From Alicyclobacillus pomorum DSM 14955 (GTDB taxonomy: Bacteria > Bacillota > Bacilli > Alicyclobacillales > Alicyclobacillaceae), in contig NZ_AXAR01000004.1 in assembly GCF_000472905.1 (NCBI RefSeq), forward strand, positions 1 to 64,000: DNA of 64,000 nucleotides, read 5' to 3'. Numbering within the stretch: the stretch's first letter is position 1; each line of letters opens with the position of its first letter. This document shows positions 17,290-30,561 of this stretch, piece by piece. The notes below the pieces were generated by a model. The model saw only the letters and a program-made list of their open reading frames with translations. It was not told where the DNA came from and made no database searches. The position numbers were made by a program, and so were the translations under genes.

Positions 17290-18078
17290 CTACACCGGTT
17301 CAGACTCGCATTGCTGAGCCGCAGCCAAGATGTCATCCATCACCGCGATGGCCGCTTTGTACCCAGCGGTGATGGCTTCCTGCGCTCGATTGAACTGGGA
17401 CGTTCCAATGTCTGACACGTCCGGTTCAATGCGCACGTCCGCCCCCTGGATCCGAGGTTCAACCAATTGATGTTGCATCAGATCAATGGATTGCATAATC
17501 ACGTCCATGATGGTTTCAGGCACGGTGGCTCTTTGCGCCGCCGCGACATCCACTGCAATCACGATATCTGCACCTAGACTGCGACAGGCTTGAACAGGAA
17601 CCCGTTCCAACACACCGCCGTCCACAAACACCCCCTGGTCGGTGACGTACGGAACGAAGACTCCCGGAATCGAGATGCTCGCGCGAACGGCATCCGCGAT
17701 GTTCCCGGACGTCAGTAGAACCGCCCGACGCTGTGTCAGTTCTGTGGTCACAACGCCAAACTTGACCGGTAATTCGTGAAACTGCAGCCGACGCGTCAAA
17801 AGCGCTACCATCTGGTGGATCTTTTCACCGGAAATGAGCCCGATTTTTGGCACCGTCAGATCTAGCCAATGGCGCCAACTGAGGGAACAGGCCAGTCGCT
17901 CCATGAAGCGCGGTTGCATCCCCGTCACGTAGAATGCCCCAATCAAACTTCCCATGCTCGACCCCGTAATCACCTTTGGGCGCACCCCGTATTCATCCAG
18001 AGCTTTCAGCACGCCAACGTGCGCAAATCCCTTTGCAGCTCCAGACCCCAGGGCCAAACCCAGTGTTTTCCCGGCCAT
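17290..18078 (-). CDS. patatin-like phospholipase (RssA/YlbK type)
   Basis: The 262-residue protein is a cytoplasmic patatin-fold serine hydrolase. It has the glycine-rich oxyanion loop GSGAAKGFAH (11-20), the nucleophile S41 in GSSMG, and the catalytic D153 in VFVDGG. It resembles B. subtilis YlbK, which sits near coaD and rsmD as here. The substrate is not known. The start is ATG 18078 behind CGAGGTGAT; the 27-codon extension upstream lacks a ribosome site. Confidence 0.9.
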   Translation of the reverse strand: MAGKTLGLALGSGAAKGFAHVGVLKALDEYGVRPKVITGSSMGSLIGAFYVTGMQPRFMERLACSLSWRHWLDLTVPKIGLISGEKIHQMVALLTRRLQFHELPVKFGVVTTELTQRRAVLLTSGNIADAVRASISIPGVFVPYVTDQGVFVDGGVLERVPVQACRSLGADIVIAVDVAAAQRATVPETIMDVIMQSIDLMQHQLVEPRIQGADVRIEPDVSDIGTSQFNRAQEAITAGYKAAIAVMDDILAAAQQCESEPV

Positions 18079-18192
18079 GCGTTCATCACCTCGTTCCAGT
18101 GATGCGACTTGCCACACGCCTGCTTCGTCGGATGCAGCACGTCCGCTGTCATGCTCCATTGGTCAAATGCGACGGTGCCGCGATACAGGTGG

Positions 18193-18678
18193 TTACTCAG
18201 GTTTTTGATACTTCTGCCGCAACGCCTTGGCAATCACCGTTGGCACGTATGGCTCGACATTCCCGCCGTACGATGCGACTTGTTTCACCAGAGACGAACT
18301 CACATACGACAGACCTGGATGGGTCGGCAGGAACACCGTAATTGCAGATGGCTCCAGACTTCGATTCATGTGCGCCAACTTCACCTCATTTTCATAGTCA
18401 GCTGGCTCACGCAGCCCTCGTACAATCACACGGGCACCCACTTTCCGAACGTAGTCCACCAACAACCCTTCAAAGTGGTCTACGGTTACATTCTGTATAT
18501 GATGAGTGGCTGCAGCAATCAAGGACAGCCGCTCATCTGTTGAAAAAAGCGGGCGTTTGTCAGGATTCACTAAAATCGCCACAACCACCTTGTCGAACAG
18601 TTTCGCCGCTGTTTCGACGACTTCCAAGTGGCCGTTGGTAAATGGATCAAAACTTCCAGGATACACTGCAAGTTTCAC
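18193..18678 (-). CDS. coaD: phosphopantetheine adenylyltransferase CoaD
   Basis: CoaD adenylates 4'-phosphopantetheine in CoA synthesis. The 161-residue protein has the nucleotidyltransferase motif GSFDPFTNGH (8-17) and YVSSSLVKQVA. The GTG start overlaps the rsmD stop by 4 bases (GTGA) and has GGGGGA upstream. The rsmD-coaD pair is the standard order in Firmicutes. Confidence 0.97.
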   Translation of the reverse strand: MKLAVYPGSFDPFTNGHLEVVETAAKLFDKVVVAILVNPDKRPLFSTDERLSLIAAATHHIQNVTVDHFEGLLVDYVRKVGARVIVRGLREPADYENEVKLAHMNRSLEPSAITVFLPTHPGLSYVSSSLVKQVASYGGNVEPYVPTVIAKALRQKYQKPE

Positions 18679-19250
18679 AAATCATCCCCCATGTCTACAC
18701 CGCCGTAGCTGCGGTACATCGTGACAGCAATGTCTCCGTATACTTTGCTCTTCGCCACTTCTAAATCCCCCACCTGACTCGGCAGGAGCACGTCCTTCGG
18801 GTGTTCACATACCACCCCAAACCGTGGATGTACAGAACACCGAGAAATCGAAGTCAGCACGGGAACCCACAGGTTCTTGCTGTACGGAGGATCCACAAAC
18901 ACCCAACCGACATCCAGGCCCGCGGCACAAATCTTGTTCCATGCGTCTTCCCAGTCGGCGCGGTACACCTTTGCACGATGCCCAGCTTTACAACGGGTGA
19001 GATTTTCCCTCAGCGCCGCCAGACTTGCTGGGTGAATGTCCGCAAAGATGGCTGACTCAGCACCGCGGCTCAACGCTTCGATGCCGAGTGCACCAGACCC
19101 GGCGAAGAGATCCACCGCGACCCCTCCAGTCCAGTTCCAGCCTAGCAAATTGAACATGGACTCCTTCACTCTGTCCGTGGTCGGCCTCGCCACCTGCCCC
19201 TTCGGCGCAACCAACGTCAACCCTTTCCACTCTCCAGAAATCACGCGCAT
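18675..19250 (-). CDS. rsmD: 16S rRNA (guanine966-N2)-methyltransferase RsmD
   Basis: RsmD methylates G966 of 16S rRNA. The 191-residue protein starts MRVISGEWKG, has the SAM-binding DLFAGSGALGIE (47-58) and the catalytic DPPY (120-123). The ATG start has GGAGTGAT upstream. It is the first gene of a minus-strand group running through coaD and the patatin gene. Confidence 0.96.
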   Translation of the reverse strand: MRVISGEWKGLTLVAPKGQVARPTTDRVKESMFNLLGWNWTGGVAVDLFAGSGALGIEALSRGAESAIFADIHPASLAALRENLTRCKAGHRAKVYRADWEDAWNKICAAGLDVGWVFVDPPYSKNLWVPVLTSISRCSVHPRFGVVCEHPKDVLLPSQVGDLEVAKSKVYGDIAVTMYRSYGGVDMGDDL

Positions 19251-19297
19251 CGCTCTGCATCACTCCATACCAAACACCCACACAAATGTTCCGCTTC

Positions 19298-19326
19298 ACT
19301 GTAACACAGTGCAAATCGTCCGACAA
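19298..19326 (-). promoter_or_regulatory. possible rsmD promoter
   Basis: On the minus strand TTGTCG (19326-19321) and TACAGT (19303-19298) are separated by 17 bases, about 50 bases above the rsmD start. The match is moderate. Confidence 0.4.
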
Positions 19327-19389
19327 AAATCTTCACCAACAAGTATAGTACGTGAAAAGTTGGCAAAACTATGGATAACAACGGCGAGA

Positions 19390-19520
19390 GCTGTTGTAGG
19401 CAACCGCGGGAGAAGCCTTACGTTCCCCATAAGCGCTTCCCTCCGGTTTCTCCTCTCCCAGAAATCGTTCGCGCGCAGCGCGAACGGCAGAACCCACGCG
19501 TACCCGGGCGTGGGTTTTCT
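19390..19520. other. stacked inverted repeats in the rsmD/amidase divergent gap
   Basis: The 428-base gap between rsmD and the amidase holds no protein gene that I can support. It contains three inverted repeats in a row. One pairs GGGAGAAGCC near 19410 with GGTTTCTCC near 19445 imperfectly. The second is perfect, CGTTCGCGC/GCGCGAACG at 19466-19486 with a 3-base loop. The third pairs GCAGA-ACCCACGC with GCGTGGGT-TTTCTGC at 19487-19522 with a small bulge. They could form a structured RNA or act as terminators for unseen transcripts; the strand is not clear. Confidence 0.4.
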
Positions 19521-19678
19521 GCGTCATGCGAAAACACCCGGATGCATGTTCTCCTAAAATGTCTGCCAGGTAGATCCGAACTCGCACCCAGCGTAGTATA
19601 ATCGGCTCAACGGCACTGGAAGACACGCCTTTTGTTTATTCGTAATACTTTGATAGATGCAGAAAGGAATCATGCAGC

Positions 19679-21076
19679 ATGAATCCACACCTTTGGACCC
19701 TGACAGAAACACAAAACGCCTTGAATCGAGGGCAGTTGTCCTACGTGGAACTGGCGACATGGTATTTGCAGCGGATTGAAAAATACAACCCCGGCCTTCA
19801 CGCGTACATTACAGTGGCCGAGGACGTCGTGGATAAAGCGCGTATGCTGGATGACAAACGGGCGCGCGAAGTGCCTGTAGGCCCCTTAGCCGGCGCTCTG
19901 GTGGCCGTGAAAGACCTGATTGATACAGCCGGTATCCGAACAACGTATGGCGGGAGACATTTTACCAACCACGTTCCCGACGTGTCCGCGACTGTCGTCC
20001 AGCGATTGGAGCAGGCGGGCGCCATCGTCGTCGGCAAAACGAACTTGCACGAGTACGCGTACGGCACAACGACGGAAAACCCGCATTACGGAAACGCTCG
20101 CAACCCCTGGAACAAAAACAAGATAGCCGGCGGATCCAGCGGAGGATCGTCGGTGGCTCTATCGGCTGGACTGTGCACCGCTGCACTCGGCACAGACACG
20201 GGCGGCAGCATTCGCATTCCAGCGGCGCTCTGTGGACACGTGGGATTGAAGCCCTCCTACGGTCTGGTGAGTAAGGCGGGCGTCTTTCCACTCGCCCCGT
20301 CATTGGATCATGTGGGGCCAATGACTAAATCGGTTGCGGACGCAGCGCTTCTGTTATCCGTCATGGCTGGCCCGGATGTGCGAGATCCTTCCACAGTCCG
20401 GCTTCCGGTACGGTCGTACAAAGGGGCACCTCTACAACGTCCCATTCGCCTCGGCATACCTGCGAATTTCTTTTTTGACCGGTGCCATCCGTCTGTGCTG
20501 CAGACGGTGCACGCCGCGTTACAGCAACTGCAATCGTCAGGTGTTGAATTGCGGGAAGTGGAGATTCCCATGATGAGCGATGCACCAGAGATGCAAAACG
20601 TGGTGATTGGCAGCGAAGCGCTGGCAGTTCATGAAGAACTGCTCGCAACCAGGAAGGATGAATACGGAGACGACGTCCGACGTCGGCTCGACGCCGCACG
20701 TTCCATTGGCGGCAGCCAATACGTCGCGGCTGCAGACTTTCGCTCCCGTTTCCGCAGTGCGTTGAAAACGGTGTTTGCCAATGTGGACGCGGTTGTGACA
20801 CCGACCACCGGCCTGCCCGCTACAGGCATCGGCCAGTGGAAGGCACATGTCAAGACGGTGGAGGTCAACGTGCGAGCCCATCTTACACGGTACACCAACC
20901 CTTGGAACCTGAGCGGCCTGCCTGCCCTCTCGCTCCCGTGCGGCACATCGCCGGACGGTTTACCTGTCGGCCTCCAACTGGTTGGGCCCATGTACGCAGA
21001 CGCCAAGTTGCTTCAAGTGGCGGCTTGGGTTGAAACCGTTCTCGGTAGTACGACGCTGGCCCCCGAATTCCGCTGA
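19679..21076 (+). CDS. amidase-signature family hydrolase
   Basis: The 465-residue protein belongs to the amidase signature family (GatA, AtzF, aryl amidases). It has the full Ser-cisSer-Lys triad: K78 (VAVKDL), S153 (GGSSGGSS) and S177 (GTDTGGSIRIP). No gatC or gatB is nearby, so it is unlikely to be the Glu-tRNA amidotransferase subunit. The substrate cannot be read from the sequence. It is the only plus-strand gene in this part and converges with gtrA, with a stem-loop spanning both stop codons. Confidence 0.88.
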   Translation: MNPHLWTLTETQNALNRGQLSYVELATWYLQRIEKYNPGLHAYITVAEDVVDKARMLDDKRAREVPVGPLAGALVAVKDLIDTAGIRTTYGGRHFTNHVPDVSATVVQRLEQAGAIVVGKTNLHEYAYGTTTENPHYGNARNPWNKNKIAGGSSGGSSVALSAGLCTAALGTDTGGSIRIPAALCGHVGLKPSYGLVSKAGVFPLAPSLDHVGPMTKSVADAALLLSVMAGPDVRDPSTVRLPVRSYKGAPLQRPIRLGIPANFFFDRCHPSVLQTVHAALQQLQSSGVELREVEIPMMSDAPEMQNVVIGSEALAVHEELLATRKDEYGDDVRRRLDAARSIGGSQYVAAADFRSRFRSALKTVFANVDAVVTPTTGLPATGIGQWKAHVKTVEVNVRAHLTRYTNPWNLSGLPALSLPCGTSPDGLPVGLQLVGPMYADAKLLQVAAWVETVLGSTTLAPEFR

Positions 21077-21099
21077 TGCAGGAGAGATAGCATCAGCGG
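21070..21099. terminator. stem-loop spanning convergent stop codons
   Basis: CCGCTGATGC (21070-21079) is perfectly complementary to 21090-21099. The left arm includes the amidase stop and the right arm includes the gtrA stop. There is no T-run, so it may serve as a bidirectional barrier or mRNA-stabilising hairpin rather than a classical terminator. Confidence 0.45.
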
Positions 21100-21563
21100 G
21101 GCCGTGCAGGTCTCAGTCGAAACACGAGGACCGACATGAACCAGTAACTTACACTCGAGGAAACCAGCATCGCAGCTGCTTTCGCCACGTTGCTCTCTAC
21201 CACCGGCGACGCAAAGTTCATGCTGTCGAGTTCCCGCGTGAACAGAATGACGACAGCGTCGTTTATGGCAATATTCACGAGCGCCTGCAACAAAAACAAG
21301 CATCGTTGGCGCAGACTGCCGTCCGTGGCATCCTTAAACGTCCATCGGCGATTCCACAGGTAACTGTTTGCAATGGCACAGGCAACCGCGATGGAATTGC
21401 AAAGGGTCAGTTCTAACGCGGTCTTCGGTGTGCTCAAGAAAAGTAGGACATTGAGCACAAAAAGGTCGACGACAGCATTCATGCCGCCGACCACCAGAAA
21501 CTTTACATACCGTTTCCATGAAGCGCGCGGCCATTCTTGAAGCCGAGTCAAATTAGACGGCAC
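21093..21563 (-). CDS. GtrA-like small membrane protein
   Basis: The 156-residue protein has four predicted membrane helices (about 20-44, 52-74, 86-109, 122-148) and the GtrA-family motif NSYLWNRRWTF (66-76). GtrA proteins are thought to move polyprenyl-linked sugars across the membrane. The GTG start is set by AAGGAGG eight bases upstream; the frame opens 12 codons earlier. It follows the glycosyltransferase in the sulfolipid operon, so a role in moving or supporting a glycolipid is possible but unproven. Confidence 0.85.
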   Translation of the reverse strand: MPSNLTRLQEWPRASWKRYVKFLVVGGMNAVVDLFVLNVLLFLSTPKTALELTLCNSIAVACAIANSYLWNRRWTFKDATDGSLRQRCLFLLQALVNIAINDAVVILFTRELDSMNFASPVVESNVAKAAAMLVSSSVSYWFMSVLVFRLRPARPR

Positions 21564-21599
21564 GCGGACGGCCTCCTTGCTGCAGTGTACGAAGGTCAA

Positions 21600-22757
21600 C
21601 TAGGAGCGGCTCTGCCGTACCACCTCGGAGGCCAAAGGGACCCGCCGTGACAAAAGTTGCTCATAGTGGTTCAGCAGTTGCTGCGTCGGGGCCGCCCAAT
21701 CCACACCGCGCACCAATTCGTCTGCACGGCGGCGCACCCGCTCCCGGACGGACGCGTCGTACAGAAGCAGTTGGATGGCGCGACACATGTCCTCCGTTTG
21801 TTCCGGATTGAAGATGACGCCTGCATCTCCATCCTCCAAAACTTCCCGCGTCGGCAAACTGTCCGCCGCCATCACGGGTAAATGTGAAGCCATGGCCTCA
21901 AACAACACCAAGCCGAGCGTCTCGGTGGTGGACGGAAACACGAAACCGTCGGCCGAAGCGTACGCTTCGGCCAGTTCGGCACCATGCAAATACCCTGTGA
22001 ACACCGTCTGTGTGCCTTGAAAGACACGCTCTAACTGCGCCCTGTGCGGACCGTCGCCCACGATGGCCAAGCATACGTCCGGAAACTGGTCCAAGCAAGG
22101 TCGGAGGCGTTCAATACCTTTTTCGGGCGCCAGCCTCCCGACGTACAGTAAGATCTTCTTGTTGGTACTGTCGCCGCCGCACAATCTGTGCCGCATTTCC
22201 TCCGAGCGCTTGGCATTGGCGTATCGTTCCACGTCAACGCCGCGCTCCCATAATCCCAGGTTGCGGAAGCGATGTACCTCCAACTCTTGCAGCATCGCCT
22301 TCGAGGTACAGAGATTGACGTCTGCAAAATTATGGAGCGTACGAAAATACCACCACAAGGCCGGCTCCAACCATGACATTCCGTAGTGGCGCGCGTACGT
22401 AGGTACATTTGTGTGATACGAAGCCACCAAGGGAAGGTGGAAGCGCTTCGCGTAGTAGATTCCGCCCAGTCCCAGGAATGCCGGATTCACCACGTGAATC
22501 AGGTCCGGATCGAACGCCTTGAGCGCCCGTCCAATCTTCCTCCGTGGAAACGCAAACTTCTTTTCCGGGTAGAGAAAAAAGGAAAACGAAGGCAATCCAA
22601 CGACCCTTGCGGACTCGTACGTTTCCGGACCGCCTTCCGGGGCGAACAACAACACCTCGTGTCCAGCAGCGTGTAAGTGTTTCAATGTCGCGCACAATCT
22701 CGTAACGATTCCGTCTGTCCCCGGAAGAAACGTTTCCGTAAACATTGCAATCCGCAT
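21600..22757 (-). CDS. sqdX: GT4 glycosyltransferase, probable sulfoquinovosyl diacylglycerol synthase (SqdX/SQD2 type)
   Basis: SqdX/SQD2 transfers sulfoquinovose from UDP-sulfoquinovose to diacylglycerol. The 385-residue protein has the GT4 layout: N-terminal MRIAMFTETFLPGTDGIVTRL, characteristic of the SqdX/MgtA group, the nucleotide-binding segment LLYVGRLAPEKGIERL and the E-x7-E motif in PSTTETLGLVLFEAM. The protein has no membrane helix and would act at the inner membrane face. It starts 10 bases below sqdB behind GGAGGTAGG. Other GT4 lipid glycosyltransferases look alike; the adjacent sqdB gives the assignment. Confidence 0.82.
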   Translation of the reverse strand: MRIAMFTETFLPGTDGIVTRLCATLKHLHAAGHEVLLFAPEGGPETYESARVVGLPSFSFFLYPEKKFAFPRRKIGRALKAFDPDLIHVVNPAFLGLGGIYYAKRFHLPLVASYHTNVPTYARHYGMSWLEPALWWYFRTLHNFADVNLCTSKAMLQELEVHRFRNLGLWERGVDVERYANAKRSEEMRHRLCGGDSTNKKILLYVGRLAPEKGIERLRPCLDQFPDVCLAIVGDGPHRAQLERVFQGTQTVFTGYLHGAELAEAYASADGFVFPSTTETLGLVLFEAMASHLPVMAADSLPTREVLEDGDAGVIFNPEQTEDMCRAIQLLLYDASVRERVRRRADELVRGVDWAAPTQQLLNHYEQLLSRRVPLASEVVRQSRS

Positions 22758-22766
22758 ACGCCAGGC

Positions 22767-23954
<1,188 letters not shown>

Positions 23955-23966
23955 TTACTCCCTCTC

Positions 23967-23995
23967 ACTGTACAAGTTTTGACGCTGCGGAGCAA
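23967..23995 (-). promoter_or_regulatory. promoter of the sqdB operon
   Basis: On the minus strand TTGCTC (23995-23990) and TACAGT (23972-23967) are separated by 17 bases. It lies between the terminator of the psd transcript and the sqdB start, so the sulfolipid genes form an independent transcription unit. Confidence 0.6.
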
Positions 23996-24010
23996 GTTGG
24001 GCGCATCACA

Positions 24011-24041
24011 CAAAAAAAGCAGGGTGAACAATCACCCTGCA
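24011..24041 (-). terminator. terminator after psd and the small ORF
   Basis: On the minus strand GCAGGGTGA pairs perfectly with TCACCCTGC around a 4-base loop and is followed by seven T. It ends the transcript carrying psd and the 36-codon ORF, which stops 3 bases before the stem. Confidence 0.93.
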
Positions 24042-24043
24042 GA

Positions 24044-24154
24044 TCACCATGGTCCGTGGAAATCGCCGTAACATTCTCCGGCGTAACACGTCCACTTCCA
24101 GTACCAGCGTAATCCCTTCCGACATACGTAAAGGGCGCTCCGAATGGGTTTCAT
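24044..24154 (-). CDS. unnamed 36-residue ORF between psd and its terminator
   Basis: An ATG at 24154 with GAGGTGG five bases upstream opens a 36-codon frame that ends with TGA just before a strong terminator. The peptide begins MKPIRSALYVCRKGLRW and has five Trp, four Tyr and three Cys with a basic net charge; the middle reads WYWKWTCYAGECYGDF. I know no family like it. The good ribosome site, the position in the psd transcript and the exact fit before the terminator favour a real small protein, possibly membrane- or metal-associated. It could be a chance ORF in a 3' untranslated region. Confidence 0.45.
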   Translation of the reverse strand: MKPIRSALYVCRKGLRWYWKWTCYAGECYGDFHGPW

Positions 24155-24195
24155 ACGAACCACCTCGAGACCAGTGTGCCCGAGGTGTCGGAACC

Positions 24196-25053
24196 TTATC
24201 CTTCACCGCATCCGTCGCCTGTGTCTTCCCGTACCTCCGCAATCTTTTGGCCCATGCGCACCACATCTCCCGTTCGCACATGAACGGATTCTACCATGCC
24301 CGGCTGGAACAGCAATATCACCGTGGATCCGAATTCAAATCGCCCGAGTTCCCGTCCTCTGTGCACTGGAACACACACCGTGCCGCTCATCATATTCAAC
24401 CTCCGTCGGCGAAACGGCGGTTCATATGAGGGCCCGTATGGTGTCCGGATGCTGCCGACGATGGTAGCCCCCACCTTCACCACGGCCACATTGCCAAGCG
24501 ACGTCTCCAATTTCGTGATAAGGCGCTCATTTCTCGTAAACAAGCCTCTGATATTGCGGACTCCGGACGCGTTGACAGGGTACAACGTACCAGGAATGTA
24601 CCGCCAGAACGTCACAGTCCCGGACAAAGGCGCATGAATCCGGTGATAATCGCGAGGACTCAAATAGATAGTTACGTAGTGCCCGCCGCGAAACTCGGCC
24701 GCCAAGTCCTCTCCACCCACCAAAGACTCGAGGGAATACTTGTCACCTTTCGCCTGTAGCAGCGTACCCCGATCCATCATTCCCATTTCGCTCACGGTTC
24801 CGTCTACCGGGGATACCGCTCCACTGGCGGACACCGGTCGAGCACCGGCACGCAAACCCCGCGCAAAAAAATCCACCAGGCACTGGTACTCGCCCGGCGC
24901 GCGTTCTGAATCTGTGCAATCTATCTGGTAGTGACGAATGTACCAAGGAATGAGGTGTCTGCTCCACGGCTGTCTTGCTGCACTTCCTACGATTGCCGTA
25001 AGAGCTCGCTTCGGCAATACCTTGAGTGTCACTTTACCCAACAAGGACTTCAT
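24196..25053 (-). CDS. psd: phosphatidylserine decarboxylase proenzyme
   Basis: Psd converts phosphatidylserine to phosphatidylethanolamine at the membrane. The 285-residue proenzyme has D84 (SPVDG), YHRIHAP (136-142) and the self-cleavage site FGST (241-244), where cleavage before S243 makes the pyruvoyl group. Most homologues have LGST at this place. No pssA gene is next to it. It lies 66 bases below recG and may be co-transcribed with it. Confidence 0.93.
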   Translation of the reverse strand: MKSLLGKVTLKVLPKRALTAIVGSAARQPWSRHLIPWYIRHYQIDCTDSERAPGEYQCLVDFFARGLRAGARPVSASGAVSPVDGTVSEMGMMDRGTLLQAKGDKYSLESLVGGEDLAAEFRGGHYVTIYLSPRDYHRIHAPLSGTVTFWRYIPGTLYPVNASGVRNIRGLFTRNERLITKLETSLGNVAVVKVGATIVGSIRTPYGPSYEPPFRRRRLNMMSGTVCVPVHRGRELGRFEFGSTVILLFQPGMVESVHVRTGDVVRMGQKIAEVREDTGDGCGEG

Positions 25054-25119
25054 TGCTACACTCCTACTCCTGCTACGGCAAATGCCTTTGACGGACCACC
25101 GGTTGAACGATGCCTAGCA

Positions 25120-27156
25120 CTAATCTTTGTAGTACGAATCATACGGAATCCGCTGCACGGCGGCTTTCAACGCTTGATACGCCGGCAACAGCCAAAAGTC
25201 CGGGTTCTGAATGAGGGCTACCGCTTCATCACGAGCCACTTCCATGATGCGAAAGTCCTTCACTAAATCACCGACAGTAAACTCCGGCAAGCCACTTTGC
25301 CGCACTCCTAAAAACTCTCCCGGACCGCGCAGTTCCAAGTCTTTTTCCGCGATGACGAAGCCATCCTGCGTAGCCACCATCGTCTGCATGCGTTGCACAG
25401 CATACTCCGACGTCGCATCTGACAACAGTATACAATAGCTGGCGTGTTCCCCACGGCCCACTCGACCGCGCAATTGGTGCAACTGAGCCAATCCGAACCG
25501 CTCTGCGTGGTAAATCATCATGACCGTCGCATTGGGAACGTGGATGCCCACTTCAATCACCGTCGTACTGACCAGGACCTGGATATCACCCGCCGCAAAC
25601 CCACGCATCACCTCATCTTTTTCTCGAGCACTCATTTTCCCGTGCAGTAGGCCTACTGTGTGCCCGGCGAATCGGTCCTTTAATCGGGCTTCCAATTCCG
25701 TAGCAGACAACACGTCGGTCACGCGCTCTGATTCCTCCACCAACGGCGCCACCACGTACACTTGTCGTCCAGCAGCGAGCTCGCGCCGCGCAAACCGAAT
25801 GGCCGTCTCTTCTTCGGACATCCGGAGCCAAGTGGTACGTATGGGCTTGCGCCCAGACGGCAATTCCCGGATGGCCGTCACGTCCAGATCTCCATAAATC
25901 GCCAAAGCCAAAGTGCGCGGTATCGGCGTGGCAGACAGGAACAGAACGTCCGGCGTTCGTCCCTTTTGCCGAAGAATCGAGCGCTGCGATACCCCAAAGC
26001 GATGCTGTTCGTCGGTCATGACCAGTCCAAGCGAAGAAAACACCACGTCTTCGGTCAGTAACGCATGTGTGCCAATCACGAGATGGACTTCACCGCTCTG
26101 GAGCTCCTTCAAAATCTCCGCACGCTCCTTCGCCGGCGTGCTTCCTGTCAGCAAACGAACAGTCATCCCAAGGGGGACCAATCGCCGCGTGGCTTCCGAA
26201 TAATGTTGTTCCGCAAGAATTTCCGTCGGCGCCATGAGCGCACTTTGCTCGCCGCAACGAAAGACGGCGTACGCGGCCCAAAACGCAACCCACGTCTTTC
26301 CGGAACCAACGTCGCCCTGGATCAAGCGCTGCATGGGTGTGTCTCGGGTGAGGTCGGCCGCGATGGCCCGACACGCTGCCTCCTGTCCTCTGGTCAGCGG
26401 ATGTGGCAACGAATCTCGATACATCGGAAAGGCGTCTTGTGGCAGCACTCGACCTACACCTTGGGTTTTCTGCTGCCGTTGGGCACGAAACCATTGCAAC
26501 TGCAATTGAAATAGGAAGAATTCCTCAAAGGCTAACCTTCGGTGCGCTTGTCGCAGATCTTCGTCGGTCTCCGGTTTGTGCATCTTATATACCGCTTCTT
26601 GATGAGACACAAGGCGGTACTTGCGGACGAGCTCCTGCGGAAGCACTTCCTCGAGTTGTCCTGCGTACGTCTGCAGCGCTTTGTCAATCACGGCCTGGAT
26701 CTGCGTAGACGAGAAGTCCTTGGTGCTTGAATAGACAGGCATGTACCCGCTATCCGGTTCGACACCGCCAAAATCTGTATGAGAAACGACCAGCGTGTGC
26801 TTCTTTGCATTGTAACGCCCTGTAACGACAACCACGCGTCCGTCTACCAGTTTGGGTTTGAGGTAGTGTTGGTTAAACCAAATCGCAGTGACCCGATGTC
26901 TGTAATCCACCCTAAGCCACGCTGAGCACACGGATTTACGGCCGTGCCAACGAATGCGGGCAGCTCCTTCAATCACACCGCGCACGGTGACCCGCTCCGT
27001 TGAGAACGACTCCAACGGGCGGGGTCTCCTATCCTCGTACTTTCGTGGGAAATAGTGTAGAAGGTCGTAGACATTATGAATGCCCAATGCGGCTAAGCAT
27101 TTTTGCTTGGCCTGCCCAACACCTGGAATATGAGTTACGGGGAGAGAACGGAGCAT
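25120..27156 (-). CDS. recG: ATP-dependent DNA helicase RecG
   Basis: RecG remodels stalled replication forks and Holliday junctions. The 678-residue protein has an N-terminal OB-fold wedge domain (about 50-150), Walker A GDVGSGKT (280-287), the box TDEQHRFG, and the helicase C-terminal motifs through QLRGRVGRG. The ATG has GGAG nine bases upstream inside the end of fakA, 6 bases away. B. subtilis has sdaAB and sdaAA between these genes; they are absent here. Confidence 0.97.
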   Translation of the reverse strand: MLRSLPVTHIPGVGQAKQKCLAALGIHNVYDLLHYFPRKYEDRRPRPLESFSTERVTVRGVIEGAARIRWHGRKSVCSAWLRVDYRHRVTAIWFNQHYLKPKLVDGRVVVVTGRYNAKKHTLVVSHTDFGGVEPDSGYMPVYSSTKDFSSTQIQAVIDKALQTYAGQLEEVLPQELVRKYRLVSHQEAVYKMHKPETDEDLRQAHRRLAFEEFFLFQLQLQWFRAQRQQKTQGVGRVLPQDAFPMYRDSLPHPLTRGQEAACRAIAADLTRDTPMQRLIQGDVGSGKTWVAFWAAYAVFRCGEQSALMAPTEILAEQHYSEATRRLVPLGMTVRLLTGSTPAKERAEILKELQSGEVHLVIGTHALLTEDVVFSSLGLVMTDEQHRFGVSQRSILRQKGRTPDVLFLSATPIPRTLALAIYGDLDVTAIRELPSGRKPIRTTWLRMSEEETAIRFARRELAAGRQVYVVAPLVEESERVTDVLSATELEARLKDRFAGHTVGLLHGKMSAREKDEVMRGFAAGDIQVLVSTTVIEVGIHVPNATVMMIYHAERFGLAQLHQLRGRVGRGEHASYCILLSDATSEYAVQRMQTMVATQDGFVIAEKDLELRGPGEFLGVRQSGLPEFTVGDLVKDFRIMEVARDEAVALIQNPDFWLLPAYQALKAAVQRIPYDSYYKD

Positions 27157-27162
27157 TGCTGA

Positions 27163-28818
27163 CTACTCCAATGACAAAATATAGTCGTATACCGGTTGAC
27201 CACCGTACTTTAATTCTACCTCCAAATCGAACTGGCGTTCAATTTGTGTCACCAGGCGATGCAACTCGTCTTCTGGCACGTCGTGTCCGTAAAACACCGT
27301 CAGCAGTTCAGCGTCTGCGCTGCCCATCTCACGGACGACGTCCATCACCGCTTCATCTCGGGAATCCCCAACGTACACCAGTTGTTGACGGTCAAAGCCG
27401 AGGTATTGGTTTGCTCGAATCTGCCTATCTTGAAAGACGCTGTCGCGTACAGCACGCACGACGAGGCCAGAATGTACGAGTTCAATGGCTTCGGTCATTC
27501 GCGCAACGTTCTGGTCTACCGAAGCATCTCCGTGGAAAGCCATCATCGCGGCAATCCCTTCTGGCACCGTGGTGGTCGGCACAACGTGAACCGTCGAACC
27601 CAATACTTCTTTCGCTTGCTGTGCGGCGAGCACAATATTCTTGTTATTGGGCAGAACAATCACATGGTCACTATGTGCAGACCGGATGGCAGACACAATC
27701 TCCTCTGTACTCGGATTCAAAGTCTGTCCGCCAGCCAAAACCACATCCACGCCGAGGCTGCTGAAAATCTCAGATAACCCATCCCCTGCAGCGACGGCCA
27801 CCGTCGCAAGCGGCTTTCGGCGCACCGGGGCGCTCTGAGCCACGTCTTCCACATGCTCCGACCTTGCTTCCGGCAAATGCGCGTGTTGCTCGGTCATGTT
27901 GTCAATCTTGATTTTCACCAGTGGCCCAAACGCCAGTGCGTCTTCCAGAACCCGTCCCGGGTGCAACGTGTGAACATGAACTTTCACCAGTTCATCGGTT
28001 CCGACCACCAACAGGGAATCTCCATATTGACTGAGCGTAGATTGCAACGACGCCTGAGCGTCTTCAGAATTTCCCGACTCAATCCGGATGAGAGCTTCCG
28101 TGCAGTACCCGAACTCTCCATGGTGGTCGATATGCGCGCCCGCAAAATCGAGCTTCAGCGCGGAGTCGACAGTCTCCATTCGCTCGATGGAATACGGTTC
28201 ACCTTTCAACCACTGGTAAAAACCTTCAAAAATAAATACAAGCCCTTGCCCACCAGAGTCCACCACACCCGCCTGTTTCAACACCGGGAGCTGTTCTGGC
28301 GTGTGTGCAAGTGCTCTCGCTGCTGCGGCGTGCACATGGTGCATCCATTCGGCAAAATCCGGGTGTTTCTTGGCTTCGCGGAGTCCCGCCGCGGCTGCTT
28401 CGCGCGCTACCGTCAGGATGGTCCCTTCCACCGGCTTCGCAACGGCGCGATACGCAATCTGTACCCCTTCGTGCAAAGCCTTAGCAAATACCAGCACGTC
28501 CATTTCCGTCAGGTTTTGCGTGACTTTGGCAAAGCCCCGAAACAATTGCGAAAGGATCACACCAGAATTTCCTCGGGCACCCATCAACAAGCCCGATGCA
28601 AACGCTTGCGTAATGTCACATAACTTTTTGTCAGACGAATTTTCTAATTGTGCCACTCCCGAGGCAAGTGACATCTCCATGTTTGTACCTGTATCCCCAT
28701 CCGGCACGGGAAAAACGTTAAGGGCATTGACCACGCCCACCATTTGTTGTAAGCGTGCGTGCCCAGAGCGAATGAGCTCCGCAAATCCAGTGCCGGTCAA
28801 ATGCTGTTGGGAAGTCAT
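27163..28818 (-). CDS. fakA: fatty acid kinase subunit FakA (DAK2 domain, YloV)
   Basis: FakA phosphorylates fatty acids carried by FakB proteins, feeding exogenous acyl chains into phospholipids. The 551-residue protein has the DAK2 ATP-binding domain with NVFPVPDGDTGTNMEMSL (34-51), a middle domain and a C-terminal EDD-like domain ending YDYILSLE. The ATG start has AGGAGGCC upstream. No fakB is in the window. It follows the Asp23-type gene by 10 bases. Confidence 0.95.
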   Translation of the reverse strand: MTSQQHLTGTGFAELIRSGHARLQQMVGVVNALNVFPVPDGDTGTNMEMSLASGVAQLENSSDKKLCDITQAFASGLLMGARGNSGVILSQLFRGFAKVTQNLTEMDVLVFAKALHEGVQIAYRAVAKPVEGTILTVAREAAAAGLREAKKHPDFAEWMHHVHAAAARALAHTPEQLPVLKQAGVVDSGGQGLVFIFEGFYQWLKGEPYSIERMETVDSALKLDFAGAHIDHHGEFGYCTEALIRIESGNSEDAQASLQSTLSQYGDSLLVVGTDELVKVHVHTLHPGRVLEDALAFGPLVKIKIDNMTEQHAHLPEARSEHVEDVAQSAPVRRKPLATVAVAAGDGLSEIFSSLGVDVVLAGGQTLNPSTEEIVSAIRSAHSDHVIVLPNNKNIVLAAQQAKEVLGSTVHVVPTTTVPEGIAAMMAFHGDASVDQNVARMTEAIELVHSGLVVRAVRDSVFQDRQIRANQYLGFDRQQLVYVGDSRDEAVMDVVREMGSADAELLTVFYGHDVPEDELHRLVTQIERQFDLEVELKYGGQPVYDYILSLE

Positions 28819-28828
28819 TGATGGCCTC

Positions 28829-29194
28829 CTAATGCTCTGTTGTCACGCGTACGCCCTGCACAAAAATATTCACTTTGTCTACGGCAATTCCGATGGATTC
28901 ATTGAGGACGTATCGGACTTTCTCACGGACATTTTGTGCTACTTCGTAAATGTTCGTGCCGTAACTGACAATGATATACAGATCTACGTACACCTCGTCA
29001 TCCCGAATCCGAACCTCAACGCCACGGCCTGGATTGTCCCGCCCAAGCAATTCACTCAAACTGTCCTTTACTTGTTTCCTGGACGCCATTCCGACCAAAC
29101 CGTAGCAGTCCATCGCCGCGATTCCGGCTGTTGTCGCGATGACGTCTTCTGAGACGGCGATGGTCCCCAAAGGCGTCTCAATCGTCTTTGGCAT
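28829..29194 (-). CDS. Asp23/Gls24 family protein (YloU type)
   Basis: The 121-residue protein belongs to the Asp23/Gls24 envelope-stress family; B. subtilis YloU sits in the same place before fakA. It shows the family pattern of a TPLGTIAVSEDVIATTAGIA segment and a repeated amphipathic helix (VAQNVREKVRYVLNESIG). In staphylococci Asp23 is linked to the membrane and cell-wall stress. The start MPKTIETP has GGGGGTG upstream; the frame runs 22 codons further without a ribosome site. Confidence 0.9.
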   Translation of the reverse strand: MPKTIETPLGTIAVSEDVIATTAGIAAMDCYGLVGMASRKQVKDSLSELLGRDNPGRGVEVRIRDDEVYVDLYIIVSYGTNIYEVAQNVREKVRYVLNESIGIAVDKVNIFVQGVRVTTEH

Positions 29195-29226
29195 GCGGGC
29201 ACCCCCTGCAACTGCTGCTCTGTGCA

Positions 29227-29255
29227 ATTGTACTATATCACGGTGTACCGATGAA
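29227..29255 (-). promoter_or_regulatory. possible promoter of the asp23-fakA-recG-psd unit
   Basis: On the minus strand TTCATC (29255-29250) and TACAAT (29232-29227) are separated by 17 bases, 33 bases above the asp23-like start. The -35 match is weak. Confidence 0.4.
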
Positions 29256-29262
29256 TGCACAG

Positions 29263-29292
29263 TTGCGTCTCGAGAAATTCTTGTGCTAAAAT
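29263..29292 (+). promoter_or_regulatory. rpmB promoter
   Basis: TTGCGT (29263-29268) and TAAAAT (29287-29292) are separated by 18 bases, 63 bases before the rpmB start codon. It is divergent to the asp23-like promoter. Confidence 0.5.
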
Positions 29293-29355
29293 ACCACAGC
29301 GAGTGTTTGTGTGTATAACTTATGCGCTTTGCGGCTCAAAGGGGGGTGCGGAGAA

Positions 29356-29547
29356 ATGGCAAAACGCTGTGAGATCTGTGGCAAACAACCGCAAACCGGT
29401 AACCTCGTGAGCCACGCGGAAAACAAGACAAGGCGCCGTTGGTTGCCGAACATCCAGTCCGTGAAGGTCAACCAAGGCGGTACGGTGAAACGCATCAAAG
29501 TATGCACGCGTTGTTTGAAAGCCGGTAAGGTAAAACGTGCTGTATAA
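29356..29547 (+). CDS. rpmB: 50S ribosomal protein L28, zinc-binding form
   Basis: The 63-residue L28 begins [16 protein letters not shown] and ends with [14 protein letters not shown], so it has two Cys pairs for zinc. The ATG at 29356 has AAGGGGGG upstream; the frame opens 15 codons earlier without a ribosome site. It is on the plus strand between the divergent asp23-like gene and spoVM, as in B. subtilis. Confidence 0.97.
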
Positions 29548-29594
29548 TGATTGTCCGCAATGGACCCTTCATAACGCGGCGATGCGCCGCCGGC

Positions 29595-29634
29595 CACAAA
29601 GAAAGCACCCGACGGGTGCTTTCTTTGTGTTTTG
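29595..29634. terminator. bidirectional terminator between rpmB and spoVM
   Basis: A perfect 16-bp stem (29595-29610 with 29614-29629) around the loop GAC is followed on the plus strand by TGTTTTG. It can serve rpmB on the plus strand and spoVM on the minus strand. Confidence 0.85.
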
Positions 29635-29675
29635 TATGCCTGCGCGCCCGCTCTTTGCCCCCACCGTCTGAGCGG

Positions 29676-29756
29676 TCAGTCTCTCGAAAACACACCAATA
29701 CAAGCCTTTACAATACCTCCCACAAATCGAGGAAGTTTGATGGTGTAAAATTTCAC
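29676..29756 (-). CDS. spoVM: stage V sporulation protein M (SpoVM)
   Basis: SpoVM is an amphipathic peptide that binds the convex forespore membrane and anchors SpoIVA, which founds the spore coat. The frame encodes 26 residues, the exact family length, from a GTG at 29756 with GGGAGG about ten bases upstream. It begins with KFYTIKLPRFVGGIVKA after the initiator and ends GVFSRD; about 18 of 26 positions match the B. subtilis peptide as I recall it, including P9 and the GGIV segment. It lies between rpe and rpmB as in B. subtilis, though thiN is missing. This proves a sporulating host. Confidence 0.95.
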   Translation of the reverse strand: MKFYTIKLPRFVGGIVKACIGVFSRD

Positions 29757-29892
29757 AGCCGCTTCGCCTCCCTGTTCTTCAACCATCGGTACGCACACGA
29801 TGATGCCTCTGGATATCGGTACATATATATTCCCGTAATCGGGATATGTGCACAGTGTGCTCCCAGTATGGCCGAGGGACATCCTTTGAAAT

Positions 29893-30561
29893 TCAGGGAG
29901 TTTGGCTTGCGTTTTCCCGCAAAGCCGCAATGGCGGCGCGGTAATCCGTTGCGCCGAACACCGAAGATCCAGCCACAAATATCTCGGCGCCCGCTCTGTG
30001 TGCTGGACCGATGGTCTTCGGTCCAATCCCGCCGTCCACTTCAATTGGCACGTCCGCCCGCCCGAGCTGGTCCAGCATTTGGCGAGCCCGTTCAATCTTT
30101 GAAAGCACGCTGTTCAGAAACGGTTGCCCGCCGAAACCAGGATTTACGGTCATCAGTAGCAACATATCGATGTCGCTAGCCATTTCTCGAACGACGTCCA
30201 GCCCTGTCCCTGGATTTACCGCCAGACCTGCTTTGACACCCCGGTGTCGGATGTGTTGTACGGCCCGATGAATGTGCGGCGTAGCCTCTGCGTGTACAGA
30301 GATCAGGTCCGCGCCGGCCTCAACAAACATGTCAATGTGACGTTCTGGCCTATCCACCATCAAGTGCACGTCCAACACGCAGGAGAAGCGCTTGCGCAAC
30401 GCCTCGACCACCCCTGGTCCCATGGTCAGATTTGGCACAAACGAGCCATCCATGACGTCGATGTGTATCCAATCCGCGCCGGCCTCCAGTACGGCCTGCA
30501 CTTCCTCCGCAAATCTCCCAAAGTCCGCAGCCAGAATCGAGGGTGCAATCCGAACGTTCAA
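29893..30561 (-). CDS. rpe: ribulose-phosphate 3-epimerase
   Basis: Rpe interconverts ribulose 5-phosphate and xylulose 5-phosphate. The 222-residue TIM-barrel protein has APSILAADF, HIDVMDGSFVPN, VNPGFGGQPF and EVDGGIG motifs. The start is TTG at 30561, set by GGAGGAG eight bases upstream and a 4-base overlap with the rsgA stop; the open frame extends 43 codons further without support. A gap of 136 bases separates it from spoVM, holding CATACT and CACATAT elements 14 bases apart that weakly recall a sigma-E promoter. Confidence 0.95.
   Translation of the reverse strand: MNVRIAPSILAADFGRFAEEVQAVLEAGADWIHIDVMDGSFVPNLTMGPGVVEALRKRFSCVLDVHLMVDRPERHIDMFVEAGADLISVHAEATPHIHRAVQHIRHRGVKAGLAVNPGTGLDVVREMASDIDMLLLMTVNPGFGGQPFLNSVLSKIERARQMLDQLGRADVPIEVDGGIGPKTIGPAHRAGAEIFVAGSSVFGATDYRAAIAALRENASQTP

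Follow-up and report, generated by a model that had tools for sequence, protein, structure and literature searches.

In the 64,000-nucleotide stretch of Alicyclobacillus pomorum DSM 14955 analysed here (the window), a very short open reading frame lies between psd, the gene for phosphatidylserine decarboxylase, and a terminator. Such a frame raises two questions: is it a gene at all, and if so, does it belong to phospholipid synthesis, as had been proposed, or to another process? The initial annotation located it correctly at 24044-24154, stop codon included, to which we add that it is read from the minus strand: from the ATG at 24154 to the TGA at 24046-24044 it has 36 codons and encodes the peptide MKPIRSALYVCRKGLRWYWKWTCYAGECYGDFHGPW. 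The ribosome-binding site GAGGTGG claimed upstream is indeed present (24160..24166, minus strand), 5 nt before the ATG, and the stop precedes by three bases, again as described, a strong intrinsic terminator (24019..24040, minus strand) made of a 9-bp stem (24040-24019) and seven T, with a folding energy of -17.7 kcal/mol and a z of -6.0. The length of 36 residues, the three Cys and the four Tyr had also been counted correctly, but we find four Trp and not five. The distance from the psd stop to the start codon is 41 nt. A GTG start further upstream, giving 39 codons, is disfavoured, as some members of the family have a stop close upstream. With 163 ORFs of at least 30 aa overlapping positions 18000-30000, however, a lone 36-aa ORF is at chance level, and its anatomy alone is no proof of a gene; what raises the frame above chance is its conservation.

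Searching with the single sequence, tblastn matched the ORF at E <= 0.05 in 21 of the 41 genomes of its own family, and a profile of 20 members matched it in 24 of these 41 genomes and in none of 18 from the order's other family. The carriers include Alicyclobacillus macrosporangiidus, A. mengziensis, A. shizuokensis, A. herbarius and Alicyclobacillus sp. ALC3 (11 loci). In a sample of the class, where at most 19 candidates per genome were scored and the search was less sensitive than the profile search of the family and order, 15 of 398 genomes were matched, 14 of them within the family; the only match outside it (G291, E 4.9e-4) was rejected, the matching stretch being antisense to a 282-aa ORF. 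It had been stated beforehand that the gene should be given up if close relatives kept neither frame nor start nor ribosome site behind psd, and the opposite was found. The start region, the stop and the terminal Trp are retained in relatives, residue conservation spans the entire frame up to the last Trp, and a GAGGTG, GGGGTG or GGGGGG-like site precedes the start in the 24 carriers. Invariant in the 20-row alignment are M1 (alternative starts being typed as M), G14, Y18, W19 and the final W. The comparison of synonymous and non-synonymous substitutions, likewise proposed as a check, yielded in-frame pN/pS values of 0-0.23 in 14 of 14 within-genus pairs, which share genomes and hence are not independent (0.19 between the window and a congener), whereas both shifted frames give values of 0.71-5.83, apart from two that are undefined. 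Third positions hold 48% of the pairwise differences among the 16 members of 36 codons. Based on the profile matches behind psd in 24 genomes of the family together with these ratios, the small ORF is a real protein gene under purifying selection.

No family had been recognised for the peptide, and our searches agree with this: none of the 20 members matched an NCBIfam family, and the sole Pfam match among the 20, that of one member to Insulin (E 0.063), was taken as chance. In the titles and abstract openings of the literature, no paper naming or describing such a protein was found. The gene is undescribed and new as a family, although its kind, that of small lineage-specific sporulation proteins, is already known.

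The link to sporulation comes from the region upstream of the gene. Here, on the minus strand at 24172..24201, lies a forespore-type promoter-like site composed of GGATA (24201-24197), a spacing of 15 nt and GGGCACACTG (24181-24172), the latter ending 17 nt before the ATG; the -35 box overlaps the psd stop codon. The bipartite motif is kept upstream of the small ORF and, in members with a close upstream stop, is not coding in the frame of the ORF. We scored it with two models. SASP genes are classical sigma-G targets, and a two-box model trained on SASP upstream regions of the same family (29 of the 30 fetched), which avoids circularity, has the consensus (G/T)CATA-N14/15-NNN-CA(T/C)ACTA, with one poorly fitting region among the 29 (L063). 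It reaches at least 10 bits in 17 of 24 small-gene upstream regions compared with 0.875% of 4800 dinucleotide shuffles, and at least 12 bits in 13 of 24 compared with 0.2% of shuffles; among the upstream regions of window ORFs of at least 200 aa, which served as control, 1 of 63 reached 10 bits. That single region belongs to an ORF starting at about 16268 on the minus strand, whose SASP-type promoter-like site TCACA...GGTCATATTA scores 12.5 bits. The second model was trained on 30 upstream regions of spoIIR, a classical sigma-F gene, and gave GTTTA-N15-GG.CAGACTG; its scores are at least 8 bits in 17 of 24 small-gene regions, a level attained by 2.5% of 2400 mononucleotide shuffles and by none of the 63 window regions. 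The site in the window itself scores 12.5 bits with the SASP-trained and 14.9 bits with the spoIIR-trained model.

Sigma-F and sigma-G promoters differ in their -10, and the consensus closely resembles the Bacillus subtilis one according to the authors (PMC3789822). The -10 of the small gene begins with GG in 20 of 24 carriers and ends with A in only 6. Where the spoIIR model scores highest, the -10 is nearer to spoIIR than to SASP in 20 of 24, a count that includes G017, whose best site is not the conserved one, and in the window GGGCACACTG is identical to the -10 of spoIIR in two members of the family (L120 and L127). The pattern GNWTA-N15-GGNCANACTG, which was written after the first two of its sites had been seen, has three matches in the 3.4-Mb genome, namely at the small gene, before spoIIR and inside a 333-aa ORF that appears oxidoreductase-like by eye; the reversed control has none. 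The small gene and spoIIR thus have in common a promoter plan with a spacing of 15 and the -10 GGNCANACTG, but their products are unrelated. Apart from this comparison, GTTTA-N15-GGNCAGACTG is common to most of the 30 spoIIR loci (L119-L148) and can be used as a sigma-F yardstick for genomes of this family. As far as sequence goes, the small gene carries a putative forespore-type promoter of its own, with boxes and spacing as expected.

It should also be noted that several results speak against this promoter reading. The SASP model stays below 10 bits in 7 of 24 upstream regions (G020, G021, G022, G023, G026, G035 and G036), the promoter boxes of three g4 genomes are poor, and the -35 boxes are GNATA-like at the small gene as opposed to mostly GTTTA at spoIIR. 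In 23 of 24 carriers, the end of the -10 is only 17-21 nt away from the start codon, which would put the transcript's first base close to the ribosome site itself, whereas the leader of spoIIR is longer: in 11 of the 14 loci checked, 28-32 nt separate its -10 from the first in-frame start. Sites of at least 10 bits are present behind psd also in two of the 17 genomes without the small gene, G002 with 12.5 bits in the spoIIR model and G028 with 18.3 bits in the SASP model. As for gpr, used as a further control, 9 of 30 regions scored at least 9 and no shared site was found. The strong SASP-type site of G028 (locus L094) reads GCATA-N16-AACCACACTA; standing behind psd without the small gene, it is perhaps a relic of small-gene loss.

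What kind of protein would such a gene make? AlphaFold2, run on 12 sequences, predicts one helix at residues 3-28 followed by a loose tail (mean pLDDT 75.8, pTM 0.39). The net charge of the members is +2 to +5, and the hydrophobic moment of residues 3-28 exceeds that of 95% of shuffles in 22 of 24, the exceptions being the window member (8.6%) and G036 (7.7%), which miss the 5% level. The initial annotation had proposed a small membrane- or metal-binding protein. The predicted helix and its amphipathic character in 22 of 24 members make the first part of this proposal, a membrane association, possible, although the window member itself falls short; the second part is unsupported, since two of the 24 members (G038 and G039) have no Cys and 16 have only one, while one has two and five have at least three. 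Zinc-finger protein chains, found among solved structures with a best E of 0.031, were taken as a chance match. On the best reading, the product would be a cationic helix that is probably peripheral to the forespore membrane.

The same promoter evidence would also fit a soluble forespore protein, whose partner would be RNA polymerase, a sigma factor or DNA, or which would be enclosed in the spore core, instead of lying on the membrane. A single helix with a net charge of +2 to +5 is compatible with this, and forespore regulators of small size are known, among them Fin and CsfB. Against it, the helix is amphipathic and rich in Trp/Tyr in 22 of 24 members, most members do not have the Cys pair for a zinc site, and there is no match to a SASP profile, so that we regard a soluble protein as possible, if unlikely. 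The alpha/beta-type SASPs (PF00269) resemble the case in being encoded by a small gene with a forespore-type promoter; they differ from it in that the small-gene product has no SASP/PF00269 profile match and is a W/Y-rich helix, and in that its -10 is spoIIR-flavoured in 20 of 24.

A further alternative starts from the position of the gene. The psd gene (24196..25053, minus strand; PF02666 with E 2.8e-62, TIGR00163 over its cut-off) is present in a single copy, has one match in each of the 41 family genomes, and is directly followed by the small gene in 24 of 24 carriers. A small membrane protein co-made from the psd transcript and acting on Psd or on phospholipid synthesis in growing cells would account for this position, and no terminator is seen between the two genes in the window. 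On the other hand, a forespore-type promoter-like site belongs to the small gene itself, this gene is missing from 17 of the genomes, all of which have psd, and simple vertical inheritance also predicts a constant position; we therefore think it improbable that the protein acts in this manner. For the same reasons, two earlier claims stand only in part. That the gene lies in the psd transcript may be true insofar as read-through from psd is possible, the 41 nt behind psd holding no terminator, but the conserved promoter-like site suggests a start of its own. The link to phospholipid synthesis keeps the location directly behind psd in its favour and has become doubtful as far as it runs via the psd transcript, considering this promoter-like site and the fact that psd stands directly before the sulfoquinovose-synthase-like gene in 15 of 17 non-carriers.

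The small gene is absent from all 15 genomes of genus g2 as well as from G027 and G028. On the psd tree (41 rows), three changes have to be assumed to explain this pattern of presence, such as two losses together with either a gain or a loss in g2. SASP and gpr matches are found in all 41 family genomes and spoIIR in 39; as relatives keep these genes yet do without the small one, its function is accessory. In 24 of the 41 genomes (for example at L047, L049 and L052), with a shorter stretch searched in G033 and G038, psd is immediately preceded on its own strand by a SASP gene; in the genome of the window, no SASP gene is found within 1320 nt upstream of psd. We do not read the SASP gene and psd as one operon, because many of the gaps between them carry hairpin-and-T sequences (by eye).

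The downstream neighbour, which is not part of the small gene, is a UDP-sulfoquinovose-synthase-like gene (22767..23942, minus strand). Its NF041015 score of 484.7 bits is below the curated cut-off of 575, and the sulfolipid operon mentioned in the initial annotation is thereby narrowed to a close relative of UDP-sulfoquinovose synthase. A motif of this gene is met 295-606 nt after the psd stop in the 24 carriers and 58-205 nt after it in 15 of 17 non-carriers; behind psd in G008 and G009, it was not found. Between the terminator and this gene lies a conserved AAAACTTGTACAGTG box (23966..23980, minus strand), probably the promoter or operator of the sulfoquinovose-synthase-like gene, and AACxTGTACA occurs behind psd in 19 of 24 carriers as well as in 16 of 17 non-carriers, which makes 35 of 41 genomes. 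The order of ORF, terminator and sulfoquinovose-synthase-like gene on one strand, together with the run WYWKW in the small ORF, could suggest a leader peptide, with translation of the Trp/Cys-rich ORF controlling the terminator as an attenuator. This is very improbable in view of the conservation along the whole ORF to its last Trp, of a conserved box that the downstream gene has whether the ORF is present or not, and of a crude scan that detects a terminator-like hairpin in no more than 15 of the 24 carriers. That the ORF arose by chance within conserved intergenic DNA, a view for which the many ORFs of the region would leave room, is effectively refuted by the low pN/pS in frame against the high values in the shifted frames and by the retained start region, stop and terminal Trp.

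The reading we prefer, with a probability of roughly 55%, is that of a small-protein gene of Alicyclobacillaceae with its own sigma-F-type forespore promoter, possibly read by sigma-G too, whose product is an accessory helix at the forespore membrane. By its upstream sequence the gene is most likely a forespore gene, and its product is probably an undescribed small protein of spore formation, outside lipid metabolism. During sporulation, sigma-F RNA polymerase would transcribe the gene in the forespore, giving a transcript with a very short leader of about 10 nt that would begin near the ribosome site. The 36-residue product would form one helix (residues 3-28) that has a Lys/Arg side and an opposite side of V/L/C/Y/W/M, and this helix would lie against the forespore membrane, on its inner, anionic face. 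As a guess, the peptide might there shape or stabilise the membrane or modulate a membrane protein.

Among known sporulation proteins, the 26-residue SpoVM offers a likeness by character: it is tiny, cationic, helical and linked to sporulation, as the small-gene product appears to be, and the hydrophobic moments of the two are similar (0.37 vs 0.34-0.54). A true spoVM copy is present in the window at 29676-29756 on the minus strand, with a GTG start and NF033436 over its cut-off. The two differ in that there is no sequence match between them (0 NCBIfam families for 20 members), and in that SpoVM is made in the mother cell and is widespread, whereas the small gene has a forespore-type promoter-like site and is found in one family only. 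By analogy, the small-gene product may work somewhat like SpoVM without being a member by sequence. CmpA, a small accessory sporulation protein of Bacillus, is similar in size; it is a mother-cell protein, no family model matched the small-gene product, and it is likened here by description only.

A bolder and rather unlikely extension of the preferred reading would be a family of amphipathic forespore peptides whose place beside psd is kept owing to an action on the membrane, or on Psd itself, in the forespore, as a counterpart of SpoVM. If true, a SpoVM-like forespore peptide would adjust the shape of the membrane or its lipid composition in the spores of thermoacidophiles. Through this finding, a group of bacteria whose heat-resistant spores spoil acidic juices gains an undescribed small protein whose gene has a forespore-type promoter-like site, and an ORF that was first read as part of lipid metabolism is probably a developmental gene. 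Being tiny, syntenic and naturally missing in close relatives, it makes its role in the sporulation of this family directly testable.
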